Positions 4,254 through 24,708 of a stretch of DNA of 64,000 nucleotides are shown here, piece by piece. Location of the stretch: assembly GCA_947259575.1 (NCBI GenBank), contig CAMYMU010000039.1, forward strand, positions 1 through 64,000, in the 5' to 3' direction. The translations under genes were made by a program, and so were the position numbers. Origin of the DNA: an uncultured Ectothiorhodospiraceae bacterium. GTDB lineage: Bacteria > Pseudomonadota > Gammaproteobacteria > UBA6429 > Thiohalophilaceae. The notes beneath the pieces were generated by a model. It worked only from the letters and a program-made list of their open reading frames with translations, did no database searches and had not been told where the DNA came from. Within the stretch, counting starts at the first letter, position 1. Each line of letters begins with the position of its first letter.

Positions 4254-4283
4254 GATACTGTCACCATTAAATAAAATATTTTG

Positions 4284-5945: not shown

Positions 5946-5957
5946 ATCATCGATTCA

Positions 5958-8552
5958 TCACAATGAGCTGTACTTACGGCGCAGTCGTTGACGCACGATT
6001 TCCGCCATGGTGTTAAACAAGAAAGTAAAGGCAAACAACACAAGCGCCGCCAGGAATAGAACCCGATAGTGTGTGCTATCCACTTCTGATTCAGGCATCT
6101 CAACAGCAATATTTGCTGATAAGGTCCGCATGCCCTGGAAGATACTGAAATCCATCACGGGTGTATTACCTGTAGCCATTAATACAATCATGGTCTCACC
6201 GACGGCACGTCCAAGACCAATCATAACTGCCGAAAAAATACCGGGGCTTGCGGTTAATATCACCACTCGAGTTAAGGTCTGCCATTGCGTGGCACCCAGT
6301 GCGAGTGAACCTTGAATAAGGTGTTTCGGTACTGCAAACAATGCATCTTCTGCGATAGAGAAAATCGTGGGTATCACTGCGAAACCCATCGCCAGCCCAA
6401 CCACAATAGAATTTCGTTGGTCAAACGCAATAGTTGAATCTTTCAGGTACCCAGCAACATCACCATCAAATAACAGACTTTCTACAATAGGTGACAAAAG
6501 CGCACCTATTATTACAACGACAACAATCGATACACCCAGTGTTAGCGCTGACTGATAAAATTCACTCTTTATTTTGTTTAGTTGCTGGCCAAACTTTTCT
6601 GATCTTGTAACCAACAGGAAGGCCCAGGGGAACAACAGGCCAGCAATAACCAGATATAAATTTCTATCTAACCATGGACCTAAATGTTTTCCGTACTGTG
6701 TGATATCACCATCAAACCACCACATCTCTAAATAGGGTCCTAAACTGAGAGTTACCCAACCAATCAAGAGTATGGCCGGAATCAGTAAAGCACCTTCCCA
6801 TCCTTCAGGAACCATAAAACGAAATTTTTGTGGGAGTCTTTGCCAGGTATATGCCGCGATCAAAACACCCACCGGCATTGCTAATAACATCAGGAAAATG
6901 CCTACTAGATTATCCTCAACAAACGGCGCCAGCCATAAACCTGCAAGGAAGCCCAGGATAACTGTCGGCAGTGCTTCCATAATTTCGATAGAAGGTTTAA
7001 CCGTCTTACGCATATTTGGAGACATAAACTGTGCAGTAAAAATGGCACCCATGATTGCAAGTGGCACTGCAATCATCATTGCGTAAAAAGCCGCTTTTAA
7101 AGTACCAAATGAAATAGGCACTAATGAAAATTTGGGCTCAAAGTCATTATCCGCAGATGAGGATTGCCAAAGATACTTCGGTTCTTCATGGCTTTCATAC
7201 CAGACTTTACCCCACAACGAACTCCAGGAAATTTCCGGGTGTTCATTGTCGATCGACCACAAGCTGTATTGATTATTTTTAGTGAACACCGACATTGCAT
7301 TGGCACGTGGTGACAAGGCGATATTGTCTATATTCGCGGAGGATAGCGTTCGCCGTAATATCGTATTCTCTGCAGTGGTGTGGTAAATCCCAAACAAGCC
7401 TGACTCATCGAAAGTAAGAAAACCTTTTCGGTTAAACTCAGGGATAATCTTTACAATGGCCGCTGAGTGACTTTCAAACTCACGGTACTTAACTAGTTGT
7501 TCCTGGTTATTTTCATTTCGTACTAGCGACCACTGTGCCAATTGACCGTCAGAGGTACCAACCAGGATTGAAATGCCACCCGTCAAGGAGTTCAACGCGG
7601 TCAGCTCGGAACCAGAATCGGTAACTGTCAGATGTTGAAGCAGCTTCGGTTCTGCTTTGTCCTGTATGTCAAAGAAAGTGATGTAACCACCTTCACTGGC
7701 CACATAGAGTTCACGCTGATCTTTATCAACTAACAGATGTGTAATTGGGGTGGCCGGTGATGGTAGTTCTATTCCGATCCGTTCAAACGTTTCGGTCTCT
7801 TCCAGCAACGACTCTTCTTTTGTGAACGCTACCAACAATAATCTTTTATCAGCCGTGCCTGCAACAAGAGTGAGACCTTCGTCATTACTCTGTACATCTA
7901 TATGAGTCAGAGCCTCATCCTGTGTATCTATTAGTATAGGTTCCGCTCCTAGTGGAGTTTCGATTACAGGTGTAATCAAGCGTTTATCGTTTGGAAATGT
8001 CACCCTGTACTTGTGTCGATAAACCAGGGCGTGACCATTACTTAGCCCAAGTGCAATAGTTGTGGTTGCAGGGTCTGCGTTACCAAAACTGGTGACGCTG
8101 ACACCCTTTGGAAGATTGGGGACATGAGTGAATTTCGTTTCACCGCTGCGCGTATCGAAGAAAAGAAGCTGACCCGTTTCGGTGACTCGTAAACCAACCT
8201 CATTTTGTTCTTCCATCGCCAGGTGCAGTATCTTTGGCCTGGATGGATCTTCGGTAATTTGATCTTCTGCCGATAGGTCCTGTTTGGACTGTTCAGTGAC
8301 TGCAATAGGTTGACTACTCGCAGAGAGTGAAAAGCTGCTTTCCTGCTTGATTTCAGCGCTATGAAAAATAGGGAAAACAACTACTAACAAGTATGCAAAA
8401 ATCAGTGTTATCGCAATGATGATACTGATACCACCAAAGGCCACGCCAAAGCGCATGAACTTGTCCATAAACATCCGAAAACGGAAATAGAATCCCTCGG
8501 ACTGAATGAGCGAATTTCCGGAATTTTTCTGTTGAGAGTCAGGACTAGGCAT
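5958..8552 (-). CDS. pstC: Phosphate ABC transporter permease PstC, long form with periplasmic repeat domain
   Basis: 864 residues, nearly three times E. coli PstC. An N-terminal membrane helix at about 35-60 is followed by some 370 residues of beta-rich repeats (for example HLLVDKDQRELYVASEGGY and SGLFGIYHTT) suggesting a WD40/propeller-like periplasmic domain. Then comes the permease region with the coupling loop QGSLALGATQWQTLTRVV. The start is uncertain: the ATG at 8552 lacks a good Shine-Dalgarno and lies only 22 bp from a Pho box; the in-frame ATG at 8474 is an alternative. It forms a heterodimer with PstA in the inner membrane. Confidence 0.93.
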   Translation of the reverse strand: MPSPDSQQKNSGNSLIQSEGFYFRFRMFMDKFMRFGVAFGGISIIIAITLIFAYLLVVVFPIFHSAEIKQESSFSLSASSQPIAVTEQSKQDLSAEDQITEDPSRPKILHLAMEEQNEVGLRVTETGQLLFFDTRSGETKFTHVPNLPKGVSVTSFGNADPATTTIALGLSNGHALVYRHKYRVTFPNDKRLITPVIETPLGAEPILIDTQDEALTHIDVQSNDEGLTLVAGTADKRLLLVAFTKEESLLEETETFERIGIELPSPATPITHLLVDKDQRELYVASEGGYITFFDIQDKAEPKLLQHLTVTDSGSELTALNSLTGGISILVGTSDGQLAQWSLVRNENNQEQLVKYREFESHSAAIVKIIPEFNRKGFLTFDESGLFGIYHTTAENTILRRTLSSANIDNIALSPRANAMSVFTKNNQYSLWSIDNEHPEISWSSLWGKVWYESHEEPKYLWQSSSADNDFEPKFSLVPISFGTLKAAFYAMMIAVPLAIMGAIFTAQFMSPNMRKTVKPSIEIMEALPTVILGFLAGLWLAPFVEDNLVGIFLMLLAMPVGVLIAAYTWQRLPQKFRFMVPEGWEGALLIPAILLIGWVTLSLGPYLEMWWFDGDITQYGKHLGPWLDRNLYLVIAGLLFPWAFLLVTRSEKFGQQLNKIKSEFYQSALTLGVSIVVVVIIGALLSPIVESLLFDGDVAGYLKDSTIAFDQRNSIVVGLAMGFAVIPTIFSIAEDALFAVPKHLIQGSLALGATQWQTLTRVVILTASPGIFSAVMIGLGRAVGETMIVLMATGNTPVMDFSIFQGMRTLSANIAVEMPESEVDSTHYRVLFLAALVLFAFTFLFNTMAEIVRQRLRRKYSSL

Positions 8553-8720: not shown

Positions 8721-9689
8721 TTACTGAATCTTGGCTAAGTATTTGCTGATTACCTTGGCAGGTAGAGGGATATAACCATCCTTCAAAACCACTTCCTGTC
8801 CACGCTTGGACATCACCATCTTGATGAACTCACGCTCAAGTGGTGCTAAAGGTTTATTGGGTGCCTTGTTGACATAAACGTACAAGAAACGTGACAGTGG
8901 GTAAGTACCTTTCACAGCATTAGCTGAAGTAGCTTCAACGAACTTGCCGCCTTTCTTTGATAGTGGAACCGCTTTCACGCCAGAGGTCTTATATCCGATA
9001 CCTGAGTAACCGATACCGTTGATAGAGGTTGTAACCGACTGAACAACAGAAGCAGAACCAGGCTGCTCGTTTACATTGTTTTTGTAGTCGCCCTTACAAA
9101 GTGCTTTTTTCTTGAAGTAACCATATGTACCCGATACTGAGTTACGGCCATAAATCTGGATGTCACGGTTTTTCCATGCACCTGAAAGACCAAGGTCACC
9201 CCATTTGCTGATGTTCTTGCTACCACCACACTTGCGTGTAGAAGAGAAAATCGCATCTACATCTTTAATGGTCATGCCTTTAACGGGATTATCTTTATTG
9301 ACATAAACAGCCAGCGCATCAATAGCAACAGGAATTGCAGTTGGCTTATAGCCATATTTCTTTTCAAATGATGCAATTTCTTTAGACTTCATCTTGCGGC
9401 TCATAGGACCAAGATTTGAAGTTGACTCAGTTAATGCTGGTGGTGCAGTAGATGAACCTGCTGCCTGAATCTGAACATTTACATTTGGATAGATCTTTTT
9501 AAAGTCTTCAGCCCACAGGGTCATCAGGTTGGCGAGAGTATCTGAACCAACGCTGCTGATGTTACCTGATACGCCGCTCGCCTTTTTATAGGTTGGAGTC
9601 GCAGGATCAATGCCGGCAGCAGAAACTGAACCGGTGAATGCCAATACAGCTGAAATCGCTGTTGCAGTAATAAGTTGTTTGTAAAACAT
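8721..9689 (-). CDS. pstS: Phosphate-binding periplasmic protein PstS
   Basis: 322-residue solute-binding protein. A signal peptide ([20 protein letters not shown], cleavage near VSAA) precedes a type II periplasmic-binding fold with phosphate-contact motifs [22 protein letters not shown] and [12 protein letters not shown]. It resembles the PstS/SphX branch common in marine bacteria rather than E. coli PstS. It captures phosphate for PstCAB. A strong tandem Pho box lies 50-90 bp upstream and a terminator follows it, so it can be expressed as its own short message. Confidence 0.96.
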
Positions 9690-9786: not shown

Positions 9787-11106
9787 CTATATGACCTGGC
9801 GGATATCACTTTTATGTGTGACTGCATCTTTATTGAAAATACAGCTAAATTCAGAACCACGACCGACCTCACTCTTAATTTTAAGTTTGGCCGAGTGCCG
9901 GTTAAGGGCATGTTTCACGATAGCCAGTCCCAATCCGGAGCCCCCGGTCTCACGCGATCGCGCGACGTCGACACGATAAAACCTTTCCGTTAAGCGCTTA
10001 ATATGATGAGAAGGTATACCGATTCCACTGTCGATAACCCTAAGCACCGCCCTGCCAGATTCATCTTCATACCACTTAATCGTAATATGCCCATTATCGG
10101 GTGTGTAATTGACTGCGTTGATCACCAGATTACTAAATGCACTATCCAGCTCCTTGGCATCACCATATAGAAAAAGCGTCTCATCTACATCCAGCTCAAT
10201 CACGTGGTTTCTTGGGCCGCTGACAACCTGCGCTTCTTCTTTTAGAGTCTGCAACATTTGAGGCACGGCTATAACTTCATGTTTTATTGGTTTTTGCTCA
10301 TTCTCGAGCTTTGACAGCAGCATTAGATCTTCAACCAGACGGTACATACGTTTAGATTGCTGCTGCATGAGCTTTATAGAACGCTGGGTTTGTTCATCCA
10401 TATTTAGATCATCGCCCGACATCGCTTCAAGAAAACCAGACATCACGGTCAAAGGTGTTCGCAGCTCATGGGAAATGTTCGCAATAAAGTCTCGACGAAT
10501 CTGCTCGACTCGTTCAAGCAAGGTCACATCACGTGCTGTTAACAGGCTTTGCTCATGCCCATAAGGGGTCACCTGAATCGCGATAGTTTTATTCGAGTCG
10601 CCGGGTGCAGGCATGCTAAGAATTTCATCCTGATCGGCACGTTGGTAAAAACTAAGAAATTCAGGGTTACGCACCAGGTTGGTAATACGCTGGCCAACAT
10701 CCTGAGGGTAATTCAAGTCCAGCATTTTAGCGCCAACATCGTTCCACCATTCAATCGTGCCGTTGGCTTGCATCACGACAACACCATCTGGCATGGCTTC
10801 TGTCGTTTCACGAAAGCGTGCTAACAGATTTACCAGCCGCCTTTGACGCTTTTTATTGCGCTTTTGTAAACGATAGATCTCGGTGAATAACTGCCCCCAT
10901 AAGCCTGCGGATGTTGGGGGTGAGTATTTTTTACCTTTGGCCAACCAACGATGTAAATGGCGAAGATTGATCAACGTCCAGCTTAAATAACCTGCCAGGC
11001 TAATACACAGAAATAAAAGAACATGATCAAAGACAAGCCCAACAACGATGGCTATAGTCAACAGGGCAACGAGTCGCCAGACTTCTGCGTTCCAGCTATT
11101 ATTCAA
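9787..11106 (-). CDS. phoR: Phosphate regulon sensor histidine kinase PhoR
   Basis: 439 residues, close to E. coli PhoR (431). Two N-terminal membrane helices (about 10-45) without a large periplasmic domain are followed by a PAS-like domain (about 100-190), the dimerisation/phosphoacceptor motif FIANISHELRTPLTV with His213, N-box NLVINAVNYTP, and G-boxes DSGIGIP and GGSGLGLAIVKH. It phosphorylates PhoB when phosphate is low, under restraint from PstSCAB-PhoU. It is read after phoB with a 95-bp gap and before pstS. Confidence 0.96.
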   Translation of the reverse strand: MNNSWNAEVWRLVALLTIAIVVGLVFDHVLLFLCISLAGYLSWTLINLRHLHRWLAKGKKYSPPTSAGLWGQLFTEIYRLQKRNKKRQRRLVNLLARFRETTEAMPDGVVVMQANGTIEWWNDVGAKMLDLNYPQDVGQRITNLVRNPEFLSFYQRADQDEILSMPAPGDSNKTIAIQVTPYGHEQSLLTARDVTLLERVEQIRRDFIANISHELRTPLTVMSGFLEAMSGDDLNMDEQTQRSIKLMQQQSKRMYRLVEDLMLLSKLENEQKPIKHEVIAVPQMLQTLKEEAQVVSGPRNHVIELDVDETLFLYGDAKELDSAFSNLVINAVNYTPDNGHITIKWYEDESGRAVLRVIDSGIGIPSHHIKRLTERFYRVDVARSRETGGSGLGLAIVKHALNRHSAKLKIKSEVGRGSEFSCIFNKDAVTHKSDIRQVI

Positions 11107-11201: not shown

Positions 11202-11912
11202 TCAAACCTGCTCAGAAAAGCGGTAGCCTGCACCACGTACGGTCTGAATAAACTTGTCACAATCGTGCTCTTCAAGCGCACGGCGTAGACGACGTATATG
11301 GACATCAACAGTTCGCTCTTCAATATAAACATGATCACCCCAAACCTGATCCAGCAACTGGCTACGACTAAAGACCCGTTCGGCATGGGTCATGAAGAAG
11401 TGTAACAGACGAAACTCGGTTGGGCCCAGTTCTAAAGCCTGATTATTTACAGTTACCCGGTGTCCAACAGTATCCAGTTTGAGAATTCCGGCCTCTAGTA
11501 CGTCCCCATCTGTGTCCCCGATCGACCTGCGTAAAACTGCATTAATGCGGGCAATCAGTTCGCGGGTTGAAAATGGCTTGGTGACATAATCATCGGCACC
11601 CGCTTCCAGGCCCTTGATTTTGTTTTCTTCCTCGCCGCGTGCTGTCAGCATTATAATGGGCACGCGGTGGGTACGTTTCACCTGACGTAGTTTGTTCGCC
11701 AGATCGACTCCGCTAATCCCTGGCAACATCCAGTCAAGCAGTACCAGATCGGGCACGGTCTTGCTCATCAGATCCTGGGCCTGGCGAGCGTCCGCTGCTT
11801 CATGGACATTAAATCCAGCCTTTCCCAACGAGAAGTTCAGCATCTCACGGATCGCGGCCTCGTCCTCGACAACCAAAATATTTGGGTTTTCCTTTGACAT
11901 CATGTTATACAT
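11202..11912 (-). CDS. phoB: Phosphate regulon response regulator PhoB
   Basis: 236 residues with the ATG at 11912. Receiver domain with acidic pocket VVEDE, phosphoacceptor Asp60 (DLVLLDWMLPG), T (MLTARG) and K (YVTKPFS), then an OmpR-type winged helix (LGPTEFRLLHFFM...VDVHIRRLRRAL). The open frame extends 24 codons further upstream, but that part contains a Pho box and is the promoter, so the internal ATG is preferred. Autoregulation by PhoB is expected. It is the first gene of the phoBR-pst block. Confidence 0.96.
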   Translation of the reverse strand: MYNMMSKENPNILVVEDEAAIREMLNFSLGKAGFNVHEAADARQAQDLMSKTVPDLVLLDWMLPGISGVDLANKLRQVKRTHRVPIIMLTARGEEENKIKGLEAGADDYVTKPFSTRELIARINAVLRRSIGDTDGDVLEAGILKLDTVGHRVTVNNQALELGPTEFRLLHFFMTHAERVFSRSQLLDQVWGDHVYIEERTVDVHIRRLRRALEEHDCDKFIQTVRGAGYRFSEQV

Positions 11913-11958
11913 AGTTTGCTCGTTTCCATTGAAAACAAGCCAATTACACGTCAATATT

Positions 11959-12831: not shown

Positions 12832-13650
12832 TTATAGATTCGGCTTAGTGGCCAGCTTGAAATCTGGCGCATGTGTTAGATAAATGCTCACCCAAACTGC
12901 AACGGTGAAATAAAGCGACATCCAGGGAATTTCTTCAGCCCAAACATTCCAATCGTAACTAACGACATAACTCTGTGCTGAATCGAGTATTCCCTGGCTA
13001 AATGTCAAATATTGAGCACCGAGTGCGATATCTTCCTGCCAACGCGCCCAGTACATTGGTACATCAACAGTAACCATGAATAACAAGTAACCCGTGCAAA
13101 AGACAATCATGGCATTAAGAAAATATCGATGTCGACCTGAAACGTTTGGCCTCAGTGCAATAAAGCTCATAATTAACAGTGCACCTGCGATCGCCCATAA
13201 CGATTCTTCGATCACGCCACCTAAATAGTGCGTACTAATAACCGCATACCAGGAAAAACCCTCAGCAATAACAATAATGATAATAAGCGCGATTGAAATA
13301 CGTAACGAAAATTGATTGTTAACACCCCGTCCTGCTTCGCGCAGTAAAATAACACATTGTAAAATGAAACTAAGTTCAGCAATGGTAGCGACAGTACGGC
13401 CAACAAGCATTGTTGATAGCCACGAGTCGACGAGACAAATTCGTTCTAAGTCAATCCGTGGGAGAAAGGATCGAAAGGCACAACCAAATACGTAAATCCC
13501 CGATAGCCAAAGTATAATTCTCCGTCCTAAATAAATATCCGGGTTCATTGCAGGTTTGCGCTTTGCAAATAATATAGCTGAATAGAACCAGGCACCAATA
13601 TTCAATATCGACAGAATACTGATAGATAGCCACCATATTTTCACAGCCAT
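12832..13650 (-). CDS. Multi-pass membrane protein of unknown function
   Basis: 272 residues with about seven predicted membrane helices and short loops; no enzyme motif that I recognise. Conserved-looking polar features lie in helices and loops (CAFRSFLPRIDLERICL, VGRTVATIAELSFILQC, DVPMYWARWQED), so it may be an enzyme or receptor-like membrane protein rather than a transporter. The ATG at 13650 is preferred over one 27 bp upstream because GGAAGGA precedes it. It is convergent with the YgiM-like gene. No Pho box was seen before it, although its neighbours are Pho-linked. Confidence 0.75.
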   Translation of the reverse strand: MAVKIWWLSISILSILNIGAWFYSAILFAKRKPAMNPDIYLGRRIILWLSGIYVFGCAFRSFLPRIDLERICLVDSWLSTMLVGRTVATIAELSFILQCVILLREAGRGVNNQFSLRISIALIIIIVIAEGFSWYAVISTHYLGGVIEESLWAIAGALLIMSFIALRPNVSGRHRYFLNAMIVFCTGYLLFMVTVDVPMYWARWQEDIALGAQYLTFSQGILDSAQSYVVSYDWNVWAEEIPWMSLYFTVAVWVSIYLTHAPDFKLATKPNL

Positions 13651-13758
13651 TCTTTTCCTTCCATGCATTAATTTCAAATTAATTTAATTATAGGAAACTT
13701 AACCTAGATCCTTATTGATTGTATTATATTTTTACTTTCACTCGATTAAGGCTGCTCA

Positions 13759-14477: not shown

Positions 14478-15371
14478 ATGTCTGAAAACTCAGCTATCAA
14501 ATACCAAACACTATTCGAGCAGTTAAACTTTCTATTCACGAATCGACTTCCACGCCGCTATGCCACTTTATTTATGGGCTGGTTTAGCAAACTGGAGAAT
14601 CCAATAATAAGCAAGATTTCAATTTGGGTTTGGCAACTTTTTTCGAAGGAACTAGATTTATCTGAGGCAAAAACAACCAACTTCAGCAGTCTCCATGATT
14701 GTTTCATTCGTCAGCTCAAGCCTGACGCACGTAGCATTGATTCGGACCCCAGGGTCATAATTAGCCCTTGTGATGCAATTGTAGGTTCGCATGGCCAGGT
14801 AAACGGCACTGAGTTATTTCAAACAAAAGGTTTTCCCTATACCTTGATGGAGTTGTTTGGAAATAATGAGCTGGTCGAGCGCTACCGAGACGGGCTGTAC
14901 ATTACACTAAGACTTAAAGCTACTATGTATCACCGCTTTCATGCACCAACAGCATGCCAGGTAAAGAAAGTCAATTACATATCCGGTGATACCTGGAATG
15001 TTAATCCCATCGCGCTTAAACGGATTGAGAAACTTTATTGTAAAAATGAACGAGCAGTAATCGATTTAACAATCACGAAACCTGATCACCATATTACCCT
15101 GGTTCCAGTGGCCGCTATTCTGGTCGCCGGCATCAAATTACACTGTCTGCCAAATGTCCTCGATCTCCGATACAAAGGACCGAATCACCTGAAATGCCAG
15201 GCTGATTTAAAAAAAGGCGATGAAATGGGTTATTTTCAACATGGTTCGACAATTATTGTATTTGCCAATAGCAAATTTAGTATTGATAGCAATATTCATG
15301 AAGGCGACACCATCCGAATGGGCCAGGCACTCTTACATATGCAAGAGGAAACCACCAAGTCATTAAACTGA
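14478..15371 (+). CDS. psd: Phosphatidylserine decarboxylase family protein
   Basis: 297 residues. It contains the pyruvoyl-forming self-cleavage motif GST in YFQHGSTIIVFA near residue 258, and the substrate-region motif RYRDGLYITLRLKATMYHR matches (L/I)xPxDYHR-like segments of PSD. Family members decarboxylate phosphatidylserine to phosphatidylethanolamine, or act on related serine lipids, at the inner membrane. It starts 45 bp after a strong terminator. Sited among lipid and Pho-linked genes, it may be a second, specialised PSD with another serine-lipid substrate; that is inference, since the genome's other psd is not visible. Confidence 0.82.
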   Translation: MSENSAIKYQTLFEQLNFLFTNRLPRRYATLFMGWFSKLENPIISKISIWVWQLFSKELDLSEAKTTNFSSLHDCFIRQLKPDARSIDSDPRVIISPCDAIVGSHGQVNGTELFQTKGFPYTLMELFGNNELVERYRDGLYITLRLKATMYHRFHAPTACQVKKVNYISGDTWNVNPIALKRIEKLYCKNERAVIDLTITKPDHHITLVPVAAILVAGIKLHCLPNVLDLRYKGPNHLKCQADLKKGDEMGYFQHGSTIIVFANSKFSIDSNIHEGDTIRMGQALLHMQEETTKSLN

Positions 15372-15477: not shown

Positions 15478-16080
15478 ATGAAATTTCTCGAAGAATTAAA
15501 AGAGCAGCGATGGGACGACCACCGTTATTACCATCACAGTCGCATTAACCAGACTCTACACTTGATTAGTGCTATGAGTTTTCTTGGCGCCTATGCCTTA
15601 ATTTTTGTTAATCCAGTGATGGCAGCTTTCCTGGGCTGGATCGTGGCGATGGTCACACGCCAAATTGGTCACTTCTTTTTTGAGCCGAAAGGTTATGATG
15701 AAGTTAATCAGGCAACACATGAACACAAGGAAAACATTAAAGTCGGTTACAATTTAAACCGAAAGATTGTATTGCTTACGATATGGGGGTTGTCTCCACT
15801 GGTGTTATATTTGCATCCAAGCCTGTTTGGCCTATTCACTCCATATGTCGGTACTGAGGGTTATCTACACAACCTGAGTATCATTTGGTTATTCATAGGA
15901 GCAGGTGCTTTGATATTCAGGACAGTACATCTATTCTTCATATATGATGTAACTGCTGGATTAGTATGGTTTACAAAAATCCTGACTGATCCCTTCCATG
16001 ACATCAAGATTTATCACAAATCACCATTCTATCTTTTAAAAGGTGAGCTGATGGATCCCATGCACCACGTTGAATCCTGA
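15478..16080 (+). CDS. Mpo1/DUF962-like integral membrane protein
   Basis: 200 residues, four to five membrane helices. The pattern N-x3-H (INQTLHLISA) followed by a helix and IGHFFFEPKGY resembles DUF962 proteins, whose yeast member Mpo1 is an iron-dependent dioxygenase for 2-hydroxy fatty acids. Extra His-rich patches (DDHRYYHHSR, ATHEHKE, IYHKSPFY) could bind metal. AAGGA precedes the ATG. It lies between the PSD-like gene and the convergent aminotransferase. The family link is by motif only; a fatty-acid or lipid-modifying role is plausible. Confidence 0.6.
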   Translation: MKFLEELKEQRWDDHRYYHHSRINQTLHLISAMSFLGAYALIFVNPVMAAFLGWIVAMVTRQIGHFFFEPKGYDEVNQATHEHKENIKVGYNLNRKIVLLTIWGLSPLVLYLHPSLFGLFTPYVGTEGYLHNLSIIWLFIGAGALIFRTVHLFFIYDVTAGLVWFTKILTDPFHDIKIYHKSPFYLLKGELMDPMHHVES

Positions 16081-16126: not shown

Positions 16127-17779
16127 TTATTTAAATACTGCCCCCACGAGTTCACGAAAAACCTGCTTCTTAATAGACTTGTTAGTCAAACTAATATCAG
16201 TCCACCACCAACCATCGGCCTTCATTGCAGTCGCAGCTGAAATAAATCTTTCCATAACAGCCTGATAATCTTCATCACTAAAATTATGACTCATGATAAT
16301 TCGACCAGTACCTACCCAGCTAATTGCGAGACCTTTTGCTCGTAAATAATACTGGAACATCCAGTTATAGCGGCCCGGGCTCGTATAAGTGATTGTCCAA
16401 ACAGATGACATATGACTAACTTTGACAGGTAGCTCAGCTTGAATTAAACGATTATTGAGTTCTGTAACGCGATCATTCCATACTTTTTCATTGTTTGCGT
16501 AGTTCTGACGTATTTCATTCGTATCAATTCTCTGTAAAAACTCATTCATCGTTGCCATAACATAGGGGTGTGAGTTAAACGTTCCGCGCGCAAAACAGAT
16601 ACGGGTTGGTCGATCCTCACGATAGCGTTTCATTAACTTATGTTTACCGCAAACGACACCAACTGGTAGTCCACCACCAAGCGTCTTTCCATAGGTAACC
16701 ATGTCTGCTTTTACATTGAAGTATTCCTGAGAGCCGCCATAAGCCAGCCTGAAGCCCATAAAGACATCATCGATTATAAAAACAATACCACGCTCATTGC
16801 ATACCTGTTTGAGCTCCTGTAACCAGGACGAGTAAGCGTCGCGATCATAATCTGCACTGCGGTCACTAGCAATCAACATCGCATCAGCGGGTGCATTCCC
16901 ATTGGGATGCAAGGCCTGTAACGGGTTCACCAATACACATGCAATATCTTTACGTGTGCGCAATACCTTGAGCGTGTCTGCATCCATGTCCTTCAGGGTA
17001 TATACATCATTGGTTTTACGATCATTGCCTATTCCAGGCTGAACACCATCCCACCAGCCATGATACGACCCGCAAAAGCGGACCAGATATGTCTTACCAG
17101 TATGGTAACGGGCCAGACGTACTGCCTGCATAACAGCCTCGGTGCCAGACATATGAAATGAGACCTCATCCAGGCCTGATATCGTCTTTAGTCGTTTAGC
17201 ATTATCTGCGATAATGGGATGGTAGGGACCAAGCACTGGTCCCAGCTCCTTGACGCGTTCACTGCCTTTCTCAAGGCACTCTTTATAAAAATCATATCCA
17301 AAAACATTCACACCATAAGAGCCTGTCAGGTCATAAGACCAGTTGCCATCCAGATCCTTCACTTGCGTGCCGGTGGACTCTTCGACCAGCGTACCAAGCT
17401 TGAAGTTATCTCGAATATAATTTCGATACTGAAATGGGACACGATAGGCATTGGTAAATAACACATCAGAAATGCTACTTTCAAGTTCCTCACTCATGGC
17501 GACAGATTTAGGAGATTTTTTTGCAAATAGGTCTTTTAAGCGTATGAAACCATTATATCTTTGCTGAATTACATTATCTGGTGCGCCATCACTACTGAAA
17601 AACTGATCTTCTCTATATTCGTAGAAAGGAATCAATTTGGCGATCCGGCGAGACATCTTTGAATGACCTCGCAGCGATGGATGTTTAGCCCTGGATAACC
17701 GCAGTCGAACTTGTACCTTTCGAAGCACAAACAGTCCAACGATAGAATAAATTACATAAAGCCCTAAACTCGTTTCCAT
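16127..17779 (-). CDS. Membrane-anchored class III aminotransferase (glutamate-1-semialdehyde aminomutase-like)
   Basis: 550 residues. An N-terminal hydrophobic helix (about 5-20) and a basic stretch precede a PLP fold-type I domain. Motifs are HMSGTEAVMQAVRLAR (phosphate cup), FCGSYHGWWDG, FIIDDVFMGFRLAYGG (PLP-ring Asp) and the Schiff-base lysine in VTYGKTLGGGLPVG. It is about 120 residues longer than HemL at the N-terminus and is not a haem gene by context. The closest style is the amino-transferring domains of lipopeptide and polyketide enzymes. The membrane anchor, a Pho box 84 bp upstream and the neighbouring PSD-like gene suggest aminolipid synthesis; the substrate is unknown. Confidence 0.82.
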   Translation of the reverse strand: METSLGLYVIYSIVGLFVLRKVQVRLRLSRAKHPSLRGHSKMSRRIAKLIPFYEYREDQFFSSDGAPDNVIQQRYNGFIRLKDLFAKKSPKSVAMSEELESSISDVLFTNAYRVPFQYRNYIRDNFKLGTLVEESTGTQVKDLDGNWSYDLTGSYGVNVFGYDFYKECLEKGSERVKELGPVLGPYHPIIADNAKRLKTISGLDEVSFHMSGTEAVMQAVRLARYHTGKTYLVRFCGSYHGWWDGVQPGIGNDRKTNDVYTLKDMDADTLKVLRTRKDIACVLVNPLQALHPNGNAPADAMLIASDRSADYDRDAYSSWLQELKQVCNERGIVFIIDDVFMGFRLAYGGSQEYFNVKADMVTYGKTLGGGLPVGVVCGKHKLMKRYREDRPTRICFARGTFNSHPYVMATMNEFLQRIDTNEIRQNYANNEKVWNDRVTELNNRLIQAELPVKVSHMSSVWTITYTSPGRYNWMFQYYLRAKGLAISWVGTGRIIMSHNFSDEDYQAVMERFISAATAMKADGWWWTDISLTNKSIKKQVFRELVGAVFK

Positions 17780-18303: not shown

Positions 18304-19515
18304 GTGGAATCTGGCCTCAAAAATTATCTAGTCGTTACACTGAGCTATTGGGGTTTCACTATCACCGATGGTGCAATTCGGATGTTGGTTGTACTCTACT
18401 TTCACCTATTGGGCTATTCTCCCTTTGAAGTCGCCATGCTCTTTTTGTTCTACGAACTATTTGGTGTGATCACCAATCTGTTAGGGGGATGGTTAGGTGC
18501 ACGAATTGGTTTGAATATAACTATGCATATTGGCATGGGGATGCAAATCATTGCCCTGCTGATGTTAACTGTTCCTGATGCATGGCTAAGTGTCGCTTAT
18601 GTCATGTTCGCTCAGGCATTGTCAGGAATAGCCAAAGACCTAAACAAGATGTCAGCCAAGGCCAGTGTAAAAACTTTTCTACCAGAGCACACTGAATCAC
18701 GACTATTTAAATGGATTGCTATACTTACCGGCTCAAAAAACTCGCTGAAAGGAGCCGGTTTTTTTATTGGTGCTGTATTATTGGAAGTGGCTGATTTTCG
18801 TGGCGCCTTATTCATTTTGTCTGGATTCCTTTTCGTGATATTTATCCTTTCGGTAGTACTACTGCCAGGCAAGCTCGGAAAATCTAAAAGCAAGCCGAAA
18901 TTTTCACAAGTATTTTCCAAATCAAGTTACATCAACTGGTTATCTGCTGCGCGTTTCTTCCTCTTTGGTGCGCGCGATATATGGTTTGTTGTCGGCCTAC
19001 CTGTATTTTTGTATTCCGTCCTGGGGTGGAGCTTTTCACAGGTCGGAAGCTTTTTCGCGCTCTGGATTATTGGTTACGGTCTCGTGCAAGCCAGTGCCCC
19101 ATCGCTGATTAGTCGCAGTCACCATGGTAAAGGGCCTGATGGCAGAACTGCTCAAATATGGGCATATATCCTTTTTCTAGTTGTCATCACGCTTGCCATC
19201 TTAATGCAACAAAACTTTGATACAACGATTGTGTTGATAGCTGGGCTTACTGCATTTGGAGTAATCTTTGCGATTAACTCTGCCGTGCACTCGTACCTGA
19301 TTGTCGCCAGATCAGATCATGATAAAGTCTCAATGAATGTTGGATTTTATTATATGGCAAATGCCGGTGGGCGCTTAACAGGAACAGTCCTATCAGGTTT
19401 GATCTACCAATCCTATGGCTTAGCTGGTTGCTTGTGGTGGTCTGCTGGCTTTGTTTTATTGGCCGCATTACTTTCACATAAACTTAGCAGAGGCACTGAA
19501 GTACTACCTGAGTAA
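18304..19515 (+). CDS. arsJ: Organoarsenical efflux MFS transporter ArsJ
   Basis: 403 residues, 12 membrane helices. The N-terminal WGFTITDGAIRMLVVLYFH and the diagnostic SGIAKDLNKMSAKASVK plus LTGSKNSLKGAGFF stretches match ArsJ, which exports 1-arseno-3-phosphoglycerate made from arsenate by a glyceraldehyde-3-phosphate dehydrogenase. The start is a GTG at 18304, which fits the family N-terminus. The partner dehydrogenase gene normally beside arsJ is absent from this window, and no ArsR operator gene is near. It is followed 103 bp later by the Pho-boxed ugd operon. Arsenate enters cells through phosphate uptake, which gives the setting a rationale. Confidence 0.85.
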   Translation: MESGLKNYLVVTLSYWGFTITDGAIRMLVVLYFHLLGYSPFEVAMLFLFYELFGVITNLLGGWLGARIGLNITMHIGMGMQIIALLMLTVPDAWLSVAYVMFAQALSGIAKDLNKMSAKASVKTFLPEHTESRLFKWIAILTGSKNSLKGAGFFIGAVLLEVADFRGALFILSGFLFVIFILSVVLLPGKLGKSKSKPKFSQVFSKSSYINWLSAARFFLFGARDIWFVVGLPVFLYSVLGWSFSQVGSFFALWIIGYGLVQASAPSLISRSHHGKGPDGRTAQIWAYILFLVVITLAILMQQNFDTTIVLIAGLTAFGVIFAINSAVHSYLIVARSDHDKVSMNVGFYYMANAGGRLTGTVLSGLIYQSYGLAGCLWWSAGFVLLAALLSHKLSRGTEVLPE

Positions 19516-19534
19516 TATATTTTACGTCTCTTAA

Positions 19535-19574
19535 CTGTCATATATCTGACCCATCTCTGTCATATCCCCTATCC
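19535..19574 (+). promoter_or_regulatory. Tandem Pho box upstream of ugd-plcP-agt
   Basis: Two 18-bp boxes, CTGTCATATATCTGACCC and CTGTCATATCCCCTATCC, start exactly 22 bp apart, giving four units in 11-bp phase. The first half of each is a perfect CTGTCAT. A CATAAT sequence (19574-19579) at the end of the array could be the -10 element. The start codon of ugd is 45 bp further on. This is one of the clearest PhoB sites in the window. Confidence 0.8.
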
Positions 19575-19618
19575 ATAATTGTTTTAACAATTAATTATGA
19601 CGATAGGTTGAAGCATCT

Positions 19619-21010
19619 ATGAAAGTTACCGTATTTGGTACTGGTTATGTTGGTCTAGTCCAAGCAGCAGTCTTCGCAGAGGCTGGACATGATGTTGTTT
19701 GTGTTGATATAGACGTAGATCGTATTGAGAGTCTGAAAAAAGGCATTGTGCAAATTTATGAGCCCGGACTAGCACCTATCGTAAAACACAACCTTAATGA
19801 AGGCCGTATTAGATTCACAACCGATGCAGCTGAAGGTGTAGAACACGGAAAATTCCAATTCATTGCCGTTGGAACCCCGCCTGACGAAGATGGCTCTGCA
19901 GATTTACAATATGTCCTAGATGTAGCAGCAACAATTGCAACACACATGGTCGAGCCTAAAATCATTGTCGACAAATCAACTGTTCCTGTTGGAACAGCCG
20001 ATAAAGTAAAAGCTGTGGTAGAAGATATTCTCAAACAGCGTGATAAGAATATAGACTTTAACGTTGTATCAAACCCTGAATTTTTCAAAGAAGGGTCAGC
20101 GGTATCAGACTGTACCAAACCTGATCGTATCGTTATCGGGATAGACAATCCATCTGTTGAGCATGCAATGCGAGAACTATTTAGTCCTTTCAATCGAAAT
20201 CATGACCGCATCATTGTCATGGATGTACGCAGTGCTGAGATGACAAAATATGCAGCTAATTGCATGTTAGCGACAAAAATCAGCTTTATGAATGAAATGT
20301 CAAACATTGCTGAGAAAGTAGGTGCTGATATTGAATCAGTCCGACATGGAATCGGTTCTGACAGCCGAATCGGCTATCAGTTTATATACCCTGGCTGCGG
20401 ATATGGTGGCTCTTGCTTTCCAAAGGATATCAAAGCACTTATTAACACATCAACACAACACGGTTATGAGTCAAAAATACTAAAGTCTGTAGAGGCCGTA
20501 AACGCACAACAAAAAGAATTACTGTTTCACAAGATCCACAATCATTTTGATGGTGAACTCGAAGGCAAAACATTCGCTCTGTGGGGATTGAGTTTTAAAC
20601 CCAATACAGACGACATGCGCGAAGCACCGAGCCGTGTTTTAATGAAATTGCTTTGGAACTCAGGCGCAACGATTAAAGCATTTGATCCTGTCGCGATGCA
20701 GGAATGCAAAAGAATATATGGCGAACGTGAAAACCTTATTCTGGTTAACTCTGAAGAAGCTGCTTTAGAAAAGGCAGATGCCTTAATTATCGTTACAGAA
20801 TGGCAACAATTTAAGGCTCCAGATTTTGAAACAATTAAGCTAACACTTAATTCGCCTGTCATATTCGATGGTAGAAACATATATGATCCAAAGACATTGG
20901 CATCCTATGGCATTAACTATTACTCAATTGGTAGTAATAATGTTATAGCTACATACGATAGTGCAAGCGACAAAACACTATTCTCAGATGAAAATACTTA
21001 TGCGGCGTAG
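19619..21010 (+). CDS. ugd: UDP-glucose 6-dehydrogenase
   Basis: 463 residues. N-terminal Rossmann motif [18 protein letters not shown], central helix region with [15 protein letters not shown], catalytic cysteine C266 in [14 protein letters not shown], and the C-terminal domain [18 protein letters not shown]. It makes UDP-glucuronate from UDP-glucose with two NAD+. It is first in a run with plcP and agt behind a tandem Pho box, so the likely use of the product is glucuronosyl-diacylglycerol rather than capsule. Length is normal for the bacterial enzyme. Confidence 0.96.
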
Positions 21011-21042
21011 CTTCATAAAATCATCATATATTTGAAAGAAAC

Positions 21043-21061
21043 CTGTCATCTCTACTGACAA
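21043..21061 (+). promoter_or_regulatory. Pho-box-like pair upstream of plcP
   Basis: CTGTCAT (21043-21049) is followed by CTGACAA (21055-21061) with a 5-bp instead of a 4-bp spacer. The first half is perfect. It sits in the 84-bp ugd-plcP gap, 33 bp from the plcP start, and could be an internal PhoB promoter; the spacing is non-standard. Confidence 0.4.
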
Positions 21062-21094
21062 TACTAATTTTAGTTGAGTAACCGGGATATATTT

Positions 21095-21907
21095 ATGACG
21101 CCAATCCAAGACGTAGGCCCAATAAAATATCGGGCAATCTGGATATCGGATGTACATCTTGGCTATAAGGGATGTAAAGCAGAATATCTCCTCAATTTCC
21201 TTCGCTCTACAGAAACTGAATATCTATTTCTAGTCGGTGATATTATCGATATTTGGTCAATGAAACGTACCATGTATTGGCCACAATCACATAATAATGT
21301 TATTCGCACCATCCTCGGAAAAGCCAAGCACGACACTAAAGTGATCTATATCCCTGGCAACCATGATGAAGAGTTTCGTGCCTACGATGGCATGGTGCTT
21401 GGTAATGTCGAGATACATAATGAATATACACATACTACTGTCGACGGACGATCTGTCCATATGCTGCACGGTGATAAGTATGACGCAGTCATGCAATGTA
21501 GCAAGCTAACAGAATTTGTCGGCAATCTTAGTTATGACTTTATCCTCTATGCTAATCGTATTCTTGATAAGTTACGCCATCGATTAGGTTTTCCCTTCTG
21601 GTCCCTGGCTAAATTCATCAAGAGTAAAGTTAAGAATGCCATGGCACATATCCGAAAATATGAAAATATTGTCGCGGCAGAGGCTAAAAAGAATGGTCAT
21701 GATGTCGTTGTCTGCGGTCATATCCACCATGCAGATATCCGCCTCATCGGTGATGTTATGTATTGTAACGATGGTGACTGGATCGAACACTGCACTGCCC
21801 TGGTAGAGCAACTCGACGGCACAATAGAATTAATTCACTGGTCTGATCGTAAAATGGCCTTGAAGGCCGACTCAGAAGTTGCCCTAGAAATCCCACAAGT
21901 CGCATGA
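21095..21907 (+). CDS. plcP: PlcP-type phospholipase C (calcineurin-like metallophosphoesterase)
   Basis: 270 residues. Two-metal phosphoesterase motifs are all present: SDVHLG (Asp19, His21), VGDIIDIW, IPGNHDEE, HGDKYD and CGHIHHADI. It is annotated in many genomes as an LpxH-like UDP-diacylglucosamine hydrolase, but the WPQSHNNVIRTI and YDFILYANRILDKLRHRLG stretches and the partner agt gene fit PlcP, which splits phosphatidylcholine or phosphatidylethanolamine into diacylglycerol and phospho-headgroup under phosphate starvation. The ATG at 21095 with GGGA upstream is preferred to a TTG 21 bp earlier. It overlaps agt by 4 bp (ATGA). Confidence 0.85.
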   Translation: MTPIQDVGPIKYRAIWISDVHLGYKGCKAEYLLNFLRSTETEYLFLVGDIIDIWSMKRTMYWPQSHNNVIRTILGKAKHDTKVIYIPGNHDEEFRAYDGMVLGNVEIHNEYTHTTVDGRSVHMLHGDKYDAVMQCSKLTEFVGNLSYDFILYANRILDKLRHRLGFPFWSLAKFIKSKVKNAMAHIRKYENIVAAEAKKNGHDVVVCGHIHHADIRLIGDVMYCNDGDWIEHCTALVEQLDGTIELIHWSDRKMALKADSEVALEIPQVA

Positions 21908-22956
21908 AAATAGCCGTTGTTACAGATGCGTGGGCACCACAGACGAATGGTGTTGTTACGACCCTAACCCGCACACGTGAGTGCTTAACCAAGATGGGTC
22001 ATGACGTACATTATGTTACGCCACTGTCTTTCAAAACCATTCCTTTGCCCACCTACCCGGACATACGAATCTCACTTTTTCCTGGCCGAAAGGTTTACAA
22101 GACACTCGATGAATTCGAGCCTGATGCTGTACATATTGCGACTGAGGGTACATTAGGGGCTGCAGCCAGAAGGTATTGTCTGAAGCGAAATATTAAATTC
22201 ACGACCGCCTATCACACCCAATTTCCATACTATATTCGCTTACGTGTACCCATCCCCATCTCATTCAGTTACGCCGTGCTCCGACGGTTTCACGCCAAAT
22301 CTGAACGCATCATGGTGCCGACTGAGTCACAAAGACAGGAATTATTGAAGTGGGGATTTAAAAATGTCGTTATCTGGTCACGTGGAGTTGATACTGAGTT
22401 ATTTAAACCTCGTACGAAATCCTTCATTAAGGACGAACGCCCCATCACACTGTATGCTGGACGTGTTGCCGTCGAAAAAAACCTCGATGCCTTTTTATCA
22501 CTGGATATACCGGGCACAAAATACATCGTTGGTGATGGACCTGACCGCGAAGCACTCAGTAAAAAATACCCCGATGCTAAATTTGTCGGTTTCAAGTTTG
22601 GAGAAGAACTCGCAAGCTATATGGCTGCTGCAGATACGTTTGTTTTCCCGAGTCGCACTGACACGTTTGGCATAGTGATGCTCGATGCCATGGCCTGTGG
22701 TGTACCTGTGGCCGCCTACCCCGTCACTGGGCCTGTTGACGTGGTACAACATGGAGTGACTGGAGTTCTTGATGATGACCTCGGCAAGGCTGTACAACAA
22801 GCACAGGCCCTATCACCACAAAATGCACGCGAATATGCAGAAAAACATTCATGGATGTCGGCTACAGAACAGTTTTATTCACACCTGGAAATAAACAAAA
22901 AGGAAGAAATCGAAGCCTGTCTCGATTCAGATTCAGCTGACAAGCTGGTTTCCTAA
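21904..22956 (+). CDS. agt: Agt-type glycosyltransferase for glyco/glucuronosyl-diacylglycerol (GT4)
   Basis: 350-residue GT-B glycosyltransferase. The N-terminal VTDAWAPQTNGVVTTLTRT, acceptor-side HIATEGTLGAAARRYCLKR and YHTQFPYYIRLRVPIP are typical of the rhizobial/marine Agt and SqdX group. In the donor site the usual E-x7-E is D-x7-D (DTFGIVMLD). Agt adds glucose or glucuronate to the diacylglycerol released by PlcP, using UDP-sugars; ugd upstream supplies UDP-glucuronate. It is translationally coupled to plcP. Its last 24 bp overlap the end of a glycosyltransferase gene on the other strand. Confidence 0.85.
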   Translation: MKIAVVTDAWAPQTNGVVTTLTRTRECLTKMGHDVHYVTPLSFKTIPLPTYPDIRISLFPGRKVYKTLDEFEPDAVHIATEGTLGAAARRYCLKRNIKFTTAYHTQFPYYIRLRVPIPISFSYAVLRRFHAKSERIMVPTESQRQELLKWGFKNVVIWSRGVDTELFKPRTKSFIKDERPITLYAGRVAVEKNLDAFLSLDIPGTKYIVGDGPDREALSKKYPDAKFVGFKFGEELASYMAAADTFVFPSRTDTFGIVMLDAMACGVPVAAYPVTGPVDVVQHGVTGVLDDDLGKAVQQAQALSPQNAREYAEKHSWMSATEQFYSHLEINKKEEIEACLDSDSADKLVS

Positions 22957-24144
22957 ATTATCTTCGCTGATAGTCTGCGGAAGATCATCAGTTATCAAGT
23001 CATGGTATAAATCCACCAGGCGGTTGGTCATTTCTTCCGCCGTCCATTCCTTCACATATTCACGTGCTTCATTTGCAAGTCGTGTTCGCAGGCTTGAGTT
23101 TTCCAATAAACGCTGCGCATTTGCTGAAAATGCCATTGGCTCTTCAATCGTTACCAGGGCACCTTTGCGTGCATTCAAAATGTCCTTAGTGCCCATCACT
23201 GCAGTTGACACAACGGGTACACCTAATGCCATTGCTTCGAGAAGTACCAGCCCCTGTGTTTCTGTTCGTGATGCAAAGACAAAGGCATCGCCGGCACAAT
23301 AACAATCAAGTAAGTCACCCTCTCGTGACAGATAACCAATAAACATCACATTTTCGGTTAAACCTAATTGTTCTACCTGTTTACGTAAGTGCCCTAGTGC
23401 GGGCCCCTCACCTGCAATCACGAAGAGTACATCAGGTATTTTTTTATGTAAGTGCGAGAGCATCTGTAGCAGGAACCCAATATTTTTTTCATGCGCGACT
23501 CGGCCAACATGAACTAATACCGGCCGGTCCTGATCAATACCGTGTTTGTCCCGAAATACATGCCCCTGACCTGACTGGAGCTCATCTAACACAATCCCTG
23601 TCGGCACAATTCTTGTGGCAGTCTTAACACCATATTTAACCAGTACATCCTTCATCGCGGTCGATGGGGTGATCACCATGTCAACGCTATTGCATTGCTT
23701 GCGGGTAAACATGCGCGCCAGATAACGCATCCATGACTTTGGGACATAGGGGAAATAGTGATACAGGTATTCTTCAAAGAAAGTGTGATAAGTCTCAACA
23801 CTGGGGATACCGAGTTCTTTTGCCAGCTTCACGCCCTCATAGTGAGCAATGAAAGGTGTTTGTATATGAAGTAGATCAAAATCCTGCGCCTTCAGTCCGG
23901 GTAGCAATTTCGCGATAAATTTGCGAGACATCATTCGATCTTCTGGATCCAGAATCACCTTGCTTGAAGGAACGCGAATAATATTATCTTCAGGTATCTG
24001 CTCGTCGGCCTGGTCGGCGTAATCCGGTGCAATCAGGGTTACTTCATGCCCCATCGATAATAAAGTTTGTCGAAATAGCTTTATCGATGTTGATACACCA
24101 TTAATTCTTGGAAAATAGACATCCGTAATCATCAGGATGCGCAT
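22933..24144 (-). CDS. GT4 glycosyltransferase, diacylglycerol glucosyltransferase-like
   Basis: 403 residues, two Rossmann domains. N-terminal ITDVYFPRINGVSTSIKLF, acceptor motif HIQTPFIAHYEGVKLAKELG and YHTFFEEYLYHYFPYVP, donor region VHVGRVAHEKNI and ASRTETQGLVLLEAMALG (E-x7-E intact). These stretches resemble 1,2-diacylglycerol 3-glucosyltransferases of the alMGS/Agt-related clade. It could make monoglucosyl-diacylglycerol or extend the Agt product. It is the second gene after the PAP2 phosphatase (24 bp gap) and overlaps agt tail-to-tail by 24 bp. Confidence 0.8.
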   Translation of the reverse strand: MRILMITDVYFPRINGVSTSIKLFRQTLLSMGHEVTLIAPDYADQADEQIPEDNIIRVPSSKVILDPEDRMMSRKFIAKLLPGLKAQDFDLLHIQTPFIAHYEGVKLAKELGIPSVETYHTFFEEYLYHYFPYVPKSWMRYLARMFTRKQCNSVDMVITPSTAMKDVLVKYGVKTATRIVPTGIVLDELQSGQGHVFRDKHGIDQDRPVLVHVGRVAHEKNIGFLLQMLSHLHKKIPDVLFVIAGEGPALGHLRKQVEQLGLTENVMFIGYLSREGDLLDCYCAGDAFVFASRTETQGLVLLEAMALGVPVVSTAVMGTKDILNARKGALVTIEEPMAFSANAQRLLENSSLRTRLANEAREYVKEWTAEEMTNRLVDLYHDLITDDLPQTISEDNLGNQLVS

Positions 24145-24168: not shown

Positions 24169-24708
24169 TTAATAAATAGCGATACCAAGACTGGCAATCA
24201 GTGCACCAATTAACGCACCGGCAATGACGTCGGTAGGATAATGTAAGCCTAAGATGACGCGTGACATGGCGACCAATACAGTAAAAGGAATCAGCAACAA
24301 AGCCAGCTCCGGGTAAAAGTTAATGGCGAGAATTGTGAAGCCCACTGCATGTAAGGTATGCCCGGATGGAAAGCTGTAATGATCCAGCAAACGTGCACCC
24401 GGTATAATGTCAGCACTGGTAGAACAGGGACGCTCGCGACTGGTTAGTTTTTTTAAAGCCTTATAAACAACAAGATTGAGAACCCCAGCAAAGATCATTA
24501 AGATTGAGACAGGGATTGCATCTATGCCATAGATAAAGGGCAAACAGGCAATAAGGCTATACCAGAGCACACCATCACCCAGTCGGCTTACAACTGAAAA
24601 GAACCCTTGTATGATAGGTGCACTTAGCGAGTTATTTACCTGGCGACAGAAAGCGAGTTCTTTCTCAACTGCACGCTGTAACAGCATATGTGTTCTTGCG
24701 TATCCCAT
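24169..24708 (-). CDS. PAP2-family membrane phosphatase
   Basis: 179 residues, about six membrane helices. All three acid-phosphatase signatures are present: K-x6-RP (KKLTSRERP), PSGH (YSFPSGHTLHAVGF) and SR-x5-H-x3-D (SRVILGLHYPTDV). Family members dephosphorylate phosphatidate, phosphatidylglycerol phosphate or undecaprenyl diphosphate at the membrane. Upstream of a diacylglycerol-type glycosyltransferase in the same operon, phosphatidate to diacylglycerol is the most sensible reaction, but this is inferred. The ATG at 24708 has AAGG nine bases upstream. Confidence 0.85.
   Translation of the reverse strand: MGYARTHMLLQRAVEKELAFCRQVNNSLSAPIIQGFFSVVSRLGDGVLWYSLIACLPFIYGIDAIPVSILMIFAGVLNLVVYKALKKLTSRERPCSTSADIIPGARLLDHYSFPSGHTLHAVGFTILAINFYPELALLLIPFTVLVAMSRVILGLHYPTDVIAGALIGALIASLGIAIY

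Follow-up and report, generated by a model that had tools for sequence, protein, structure and literature searches.

Lipid renovation by the enzyme pair PlcP and Agt is described for marine heterotrophs and SAR11, in which plcP lies directly upstream of an agt homologue, with a Pho box upstream, and monoglucosyldiacylglycerol (MGDG) and glucuronic acid diacylglycerol (GADG) are formed (PMC4796936). In Pseudomonas aeruginosa PlcP (PA3219) is accompanied by two GT4 enzymes, Agt1 and Agt2, and by Pho boxes, and both glucosyl- and glucuronosyl-diacylglycerol (DAG) are reported (PMC8528852); in Methylosinus trichosporium OB3b deletion showed a plcP-agt operon to be needed for GADG (PMC9239053). Considered here is a related run of three genes, ugd-plcP-agt, which lies behind a PhoB-type array in the first 64,000 nucleotides (the window) of contig CAMYMU010000039.1 from an uncultured Ectothiorhodospiraceae bacterium. 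Judged from its sequence, the run is likely to serve a PhoB-induced swap of phospholipids for glucuronosyl-DAG, probably with glucosyl-DAG, as a variant of the PlcP-Agt pathway.

The adjacency of plcP and agt and the upstream Pho box are shared with the marine system (PMC4796936), PlcP, two GT4 enzymes and Pho boxes with P. aeruginosa (PMC8528852), and the plcP-agt operon with M. trichosporium (PMC9239053). The window run differs in being headed by ugd: neither "ugd" nor "UDP-glucose dehydrogenase" (UDP being uridine diphosphate) appears in the main text of the marine account or of the P. aeruginosa account, the latter placing agt2 at another locus, and the same holds for "dehydrogenase" and "aminotransferase" in the main text of the M. 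trichosporium paper. No link of ugd with plcP was found among the open-access literature matches listed. The enzyme pair itself is already known, and what is new is the sugar-acid gene within the same switch, as a built-in supply of UDP-glucuronate (UDP-GlcA), which is a modest novelty.

The Pho array and the three-gene run

The genes ugd, plcP and agt are real, with the order and strand that the original prediction gave them, and Pfam assigns all three UDP-glucose dehydrogenase domains to Ugd, a calcineurin-like phosphoesterase domain to PlcP and GT4-type glycosyltransferase domains to Agt. The plcP and agt genes overlap in ATGA, and the gap between ugd and plcP is 87 bp when plcP is started at ATG 21098 (a TTG at 21074 is likewise open) and holds no terminator-like site; two weak sites of this kind lie inside ugd, and the total of all such sites, 5, does not exceed the 6.0 seen in shuffles.

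The PhoB half-site consensus of E. coli is CTGTCAT, and candidate Pho sites were scored against it. Read in the frame from 19524 the array before ugd has four units with 21/28 matches, the highest score on the plus strand of the window. Four half sites in exact 11-bp phase from 19535 had been predicted, and this is borne out in substance with a frame that is one unit off, since the units from 19535 score 7, 4, 7 and 1 of 7 and the fourth, with its single match, is not a half-site; the four-unit total of that frame, 19/28, is expected by chance 0.65 times per window. The three half-sites at 19535-19563 (18/21) make up the sole score of at least 18 on either strand of the window and none was seen in 40 simulated windows, a three-unit statistic that was picked after the site had been seen, and the two-unit score of 11/14 is ordinary, with 6.7 expected per window.

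A stronger argument than these window statistics is the comparative alignment in congeners. Of three same-genus genomes two, G001 and G003, were found to carry plcP, and the arrays in both have four units in the same 11-bp register as the 19524 frame, upstream of ugd or of a ugd remnant, with a TGACC core in common in the third unit. The order ugd-plcP-agt is that of G001 up to the contig end inside plcP. In G003 what is left of ugd between the array and plcP is a stub of 31 codons, 87% identical and shortly before plcP, which dates the order array-ugd-plcP-agt to before the species split; ugd-plcP-agt is ancestral to the genus, and plcP-agt of G003 now lies directly behind the ugd promoter region. 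Among 12 ugd genes from inside and outside such clusters, 2 (those of the window and G001) are preceded by a triple of at least 17, as are 5 of 109 plcP genes, with 0.0 expected from shuffled upstream regions in each case. The region upstream of ugd thus holds the 11-bp phased CTGTCAT-type direct repeats of a Pho-regulon promoter, and PhoB control of ugd-plcP-agt appears well supported.

Pairs of CTGTCAT type also lie upstream of phoB (12/14) and pstS (13/14), those of phoB, pstS and pstC together spanning 12-13/14, and other pairs of 13/14 at window positions 1415 (minus strand) and 8647 (plus strand) are perhaps further Pho sites of the pst region. Pairs of at least 12 were found upstream of psd in 0/17, orf200 in 2/16, amt3 in 1/20, arsJ in 0/3, gt2 in 0/14 and agt in 0/57 of the loci compared. 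A further pair that had been proposed before plcP was given up, there being one exact CTGTCAT at 21043 whose best in-phase partner scores 3/7 and no such site in the short ugd-plcP gap of G001.

Metallophosphoesterases are marked by the metal motifs DxH, GDxxD, GNHD, HGD and GHxH, all of which are present in the window PlcP, and GNHD, HGD and GHIH are invariant in 22/22 aligned PlcP rows. Placement among true LpxH enzymes had been named beforehand as an outcome that would count against the lipid-replacement reading, and the tree came out the other way, 21 PlcP rows separating from 5 LpxH-like rows at 100/100; PlcP reaches 29 bits against the LpxH model (cut-off 134), and the genome has its own LpxH elsewhere (contig C46, 297 bits against the same cut-off). 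A misannotated LpxH was rejected on the tree split and this separate gene, and PlcP as a predicted lipid-remodelling enzyme of phospholipase C type is well supported; the activity expected of such an enzyme is Mn-dependent hydrolysis of phospholipids to DAG.

For Agt the reported signature is that of the DAG glycosyltransferase GTcp of Candidatus Pelagibacter HTCC7211, namely GRVAxEKN, FPSxTDTFG with its Asp and a catalytic His (PMC8231724). The window Agt carries GRVAVEKN, FPSRTDTFG and YHT, and so has in common with GTcp, as far as its sequence alone tells, the motifs and the His and Asp pair. It is encoded directly downstream of plcP, as is an agt in 46/80 named plcP loci (44/75 of those with at least 1 kb of room), these being the best 80 of at least 581 matches, a sample leaning to near relatives. 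The Asp form is present in 41/46 Agt homologues of these loci, the remaining 5 lying outside the search pattern, and gt2 homologues that match the pattern show Glu (2 in the named loci and 12 in the relative loci, which are 24 in number with the window excluded and two taken from G003). With the published signature present, the assignment of Agt as an Agt-type DAG glycosyltransferase is a well supported prediction.

Ugd and the choice of lipid product

Ugd has the NAD-binding, central and UDP-binding domains and the catalytic Cys in GGSCFPKD; its 477.7 bits fall below the TuaD equivalog cut-off of 700, and its 469.6 bits lie above the cut-off of 189.8 for the nucleoside diphosphate (NDP)-sugar dehydrogenase subfamily. 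In the source genome (3.45 Mb, 70 contigs, 95.85% complete) it is the only close UDP-glucose dehydrogenase found, the next match being 26% identical and located on contig C51, which by inspection carries sugar-epimerase and O-antigen-type genes.

The ugd gene might instead serve surface polysaccharide or lipopolysaccharide, its place before plcP-agt under a Pho box then being incidental. Three genomes of another genus, g14 (G016, G035 and G027), speak for this in having ugd homologues 70-71% identical, next to thrS-like or to NAD-epimerase and NDP-sugar-type genes (names by inspection), with no PlcP found there. However, no polysaccharide gene adjoins ugd in the window, the array and gene order are ancestral in the genus, and no close relative of a putative UDP-GlcA 4-epimerase was found in the genome, the best match having 30% identity to the query from locus L142, which is presumably such an enzyme and to which Pfam gives NAD-dependent epimerase only. 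The polysaccharide role is on balance improbable.

The sugar specificity of Agt is not readable from its sequence. GTcp accepts UDP-glucose (UDP-Glc), UDP-GlcA and UDP-galactose (UDP-Gal), with kcat/Km of about 71 for UDP-Glc and 60 for UDP-GlcA, a slight preference of this SAR11 relative for UDP-Glc (PMC8231724), and in P. aeruginosa Agt1 is reported to take UDP-glucose only and Agt2 UDP-GlcA (PMC8528852). The second GT4 gene of the window, gt2, has as its best NCBIfam match the alpha-monoglucosyl-DAG synthase, at 161.4 bits and below the cut-off of 400. In line with these observations, and with the loss of ugd from the G003 operon, the main surrogate could be neutral glucosyl-DAG or a two-sugar lipid made by Agt and gt2, ugd serving a minor acidic lipid or being a passenger. 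Such an outcome is possible but rather doubtful, as set against it are the standing of ugd as the only close dehydrogenase found, its position directly behind a conserved Pho array and its occurrence by plcP in several other lineages.

The prediction of glucuronosyl-DAG as the surrogate, as originally made, is sound, since no other close UDP-glucose dehydrogenase was found in the genome and ugd heads the run. Other products are likely as well, because the Agt relative uses all three nucleotide sugars and because gt2 and pap2 lie just downstream. Within 8 kb of plcP, gt2 occurs in 12/24 and pap2 in 11/24 relative loci, and both are probably part of the same programme as plcP-agt, in which pap2 could provide DAG from phosphatidate.

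Beyond the genus the association of ugd with plcP takes several forms. The order is plcP-agt-ugd in L101 and L145; ugd is convergent with plcP-agt in L123, and in L121 with plcP in the absence of a close agt. L121 was kept only as a case of ugd by plcP, as its GT4 gene scores 134 bits against agt and is about 5 kb off. In the Ugd tree the Ugds of the window and G001 share a starred branch (100/99) with three non-cluster Ugds; L101, L145 and the group of L121, L123 and L146 fall elsewhere, their own forks being less firm (L145 sits on a long branch, and two forks are left undecided). On this tree ugd stands beside plcP in separate Ugd lineages. As a side observation, in L101 (MED781, a marine gammaproteobacterium; 3926-7750) Ppx-like and polyphosphate-kinase-like open reading frames (ORFs), by inspection, immediately precede plcP-agt-ugd in divergent orientation.

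Several of these comparisons weigh against a glucuronolipid switch, as does the slight preference of GTcp for UDP-Glc. The array of G003 is weaker (20/28), and this genome lost ugd from the operon and kept plcP-agt, so there the gene was dispensable; another ugd of G003, on contig C38, has a polysaccharide-type setting by inspection. No triple of at least 17 was found upstream of 104/109 plcP genes and no pair of at least 12 in 100/109, many of which may be inside operons or have diverged sites. The proposed search for the same order in other genomes met with array and order in the congeners, but elsewhere ugd by plcP is rare and the orders differ: ugd is within 8 kb of plcP in 3/80 named loci, and in a draw of 229 class genomes, with plcP in 64, ugd in 158 and both in 52, the two are within about 7 kb in at least 3 of the 52. 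G157, counted among these, was set aside as a further ugd-plcP genome, its ugd being beside a NAD-dependent epimerase gene with other ORFs before plcP, and the proximity there is probably incidental.

Neighbouring genes and the psd, orf200 and amt3 set

Features of the window discussed in the text, with positions in the 64,000-nucleotide stretch
Feature	Position	Strand	Remarks
PhoB-type array	19524..19563	+	four 11-bp-spaced units; 3, 7, 4, 7 of 7 matches to CTGTCAT
ugd, UDP-glucose 6-dehydrogenase	19619..21010	+	463 aa; GGSCFPKD at residue 263
plcP, metallophosphoesterase, phospholipase C type (predicted)	21098..21907	+	269 aa from ATG
agt, GT4 DAG glycosyltransferase of Agt/GTcp group (predicted)	21904..22956	+	350 aa
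gt2, second GT4 glycosyltransferase	22933..24144	-	convergent with agt and overlapping agt
pap2, PAP2-family lipid phosphatase	24169..24708	-	family match
psd paralogue, phosphatidylserine-decarboxylase family	14478..15371	+	HGST at 255, YHR at 151
orf200, small membrane protein, divergent Mpo1-like	15478..16080	+	PF06127 below cut-off
amt3, class-III pyridoxal phosphate (PLP) aminotransferase	16127..17779	-	N-terminal hydrophobic helix
arsJ, organoarsenical efflux transporter of the major facilitator superfamily	18304..19515	+	NF033734, 599.5 bits against cut-off 400
PhoB-type response regulator	11202..11915	-	named from place beside phoR
phoR sensor kinase	9787..11106	-	PF11808
pstS-type phosphate-binding protein	8721..9689	-	named from place and PF12849
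pstC permease, long form	5958..8552	-	TIGR02138, 200.1 bits against cut-off 196.45

The run had been placed beside phoBR-pst as a complete module. The genes for PhoR, a PhoB-type regulator, a Pst-type binding protein and the PstC permease are indeed in the window, but about 7.7 kb and seven other genes separate ugd from phoB, the nearest of them, and the term module understates an island that also holds psd, a Mpo1-like gene and an aminotransferase gene, which recur beside plcP elsewhere. Between the aminotransferase gene and the Pho array lies arsJ, with no adjoining GAPDH gene; a homologue is at the same place in G003 and not in G001, and a search of the genome for the arsenate-type GAPDH partner yielded nothing above the cut-off and three partial matches, of which two lie at the ends of contigs. 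It is an upstream neighbour without known tie to the lipid pathway. In G001 a GDPD-family phosphodiesterase gene (PF03009; L037 7662-8936) stands between amt3 and ugd, where the window has none, and G003 has an ORF of equal length (425 aa; L031 9768-11042) in the matching place, the family assignment being for the G001 ORF only. A membrane protein of 281 aa at 12832-13677 of the window has no Pfam match at E of 0.001 or less and no NCBIfam match at 0.1 or less, and has homologues in four other amt3 loci (L031, L047, L147 and L150).

The psd gene of the window is probably a specialised paralogue, because the genome has another Psd-family gene on contig C59, to which it is 32% identical. For orf200 the match to PF06127 is 22 bits against a cut-off of 24, below the curated Mpo1-like threshold, and is recovered at E of 0.1 or less in 16/16 members of its family, which suggests a divergent Mpo1-like membrane protein; a fold search with its model (predicted local distance difference test score 87.5) gave no useful match (Foldseek best E 0.69, VIA best Z 4.1), an outcome that speaks neither for a new fold nor against kinship. 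The third gene, amt3, has the family match (115.5 bits against 30.5), the fold and the PLP lysine of class-III aminotransferases, the latter in GKTLGGG at 364 with K365 invariant in 18/18 rows. Its top solved structure is the AMT domain of mycosubtilin synthase (PDB 6kfm; Z 32.9, 30% identity and a root mean square deviation of 2.4 over 416 residues); many other class-III enzymes come next at Z 28-30, glutamate-1-semialdehyde aminomutases among them. In contrast to the AMT domain, amt3 is stand-alone, has an N-terminal hydrophobic helix and is found in lipid gene clusters.

These three genes look like one pathway tied to lipid renovation, because of the proximity of amt3 to plcP, a natural fusion, the grouping of agt in G008 and the presence of ugd in 5/20 module loci. 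In the class draw, which gives the unbiased figure since the 20 module loci were partly chosen for nearness to plcP, amt3 is present in 8/229 genomes; plcP was found in 6 of these, and in 4 of the 6 the two genes are no more than 5 kb apart (Fisher p 0.007 with and 0.018 without the window's genome, in tests that ignore relatedness). The fusion, in G127 (L149 10507-12717), joins amt3 to an orf200-like domain, the two sequences having been read side by side, and in G008 agt is grouped with orf200, amt3 and psd at a site distant from plcP. Among the open-access literature matches listed there was no described function for the psd, Mpo1-like and class-III aminotransferase set, and nothing on bacterial Mpo1 (Mpo1/DUF962).

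The set may make or modify a phosphorus-free aminolipid. More specifically, and tentatively, amt3 as a membrane-anchored aminotransferase, orf200 as a Mpo1-like membrane protein and a specialised Psd-type pyruvoyl decarboxylase could aminate or remodel a lipid made available by PlcP, Agt and Ugd (DAG, glucuronosyl-DAG or a fatty chain). The resulting phosphorus-free aminolipid, cationic or zwitterionic, would take the place of phosphatidylethanolamine in the starved cell, as the acidic glucuronolipid would take that of phosphatidylglycerol. If all these enzymes drew on one lipid pool, glucuronosyl-DAG or DAG would be an intermediate and the product of the whole island an amino-containing lipid free of phosphorus. 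The linkage just described and the other Psd-family gene in the genome favour that outcome, but 58/64 plcP genomes of the class draw are without amt3 at the cut-off, G081 and G221 carry the aminotransferase with no detected plcP, and in the window psd, orf200 and amt3 are not preceded by any good Pho pair, as few are in relatives. It is a conceivable end point, with the odds somewhat against it.

The predicted pathway and its meaning

With glucuronosyl-DAG, probably alongside glucosyl-DAG, as the favoured outcome, and with the chemistry taken from the characterised relatives in P. aeruginosa, SAR11 and M. trichosporium, a route can be proposed. Under phosphate starvation phosphorylated PhoB would bind the array and drive ugd-plcP-agt as one transcript. 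PlcP would then remove the phosphate head group from membrane phospholipids to yield DAG and free phosphate, Ugd would oxidise UDP-glucose to UDP-GlcA, and Agt would transfer glucuronate, and probably also glucose, onto DAG for making glucuronosyl-DAG and glucosyl-DAG, the mixed product being expected because GTcp accepts both UDP-Glc and UDP-GlcA. The acidic glucuronosyl-DAG would replace phosphatidylglycerol, and ugd within the switch would secure UDP-GlcA in a genome where no other close UDP-glucose dehydrogenase was found.

If this is so, the starved cell would both redirect its DAG and make its own UDP-glucuronate on the same signal, and an acidic stand-in for phosphatidylglycerol would be a designed output and not the side product of a loose enzyme. 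Likely producers of glucuronolipids could then be recognised in genomes by ugd beside plcP, an association present in separate lineages. The psd-orf200-amt3 module is more unusual than the operon and is the part most worth following, as a concrete lead to a phosphorus-free aminolipid that may be made in gammaproteobacteria (Burkholderiales included) and in sphingomonads.

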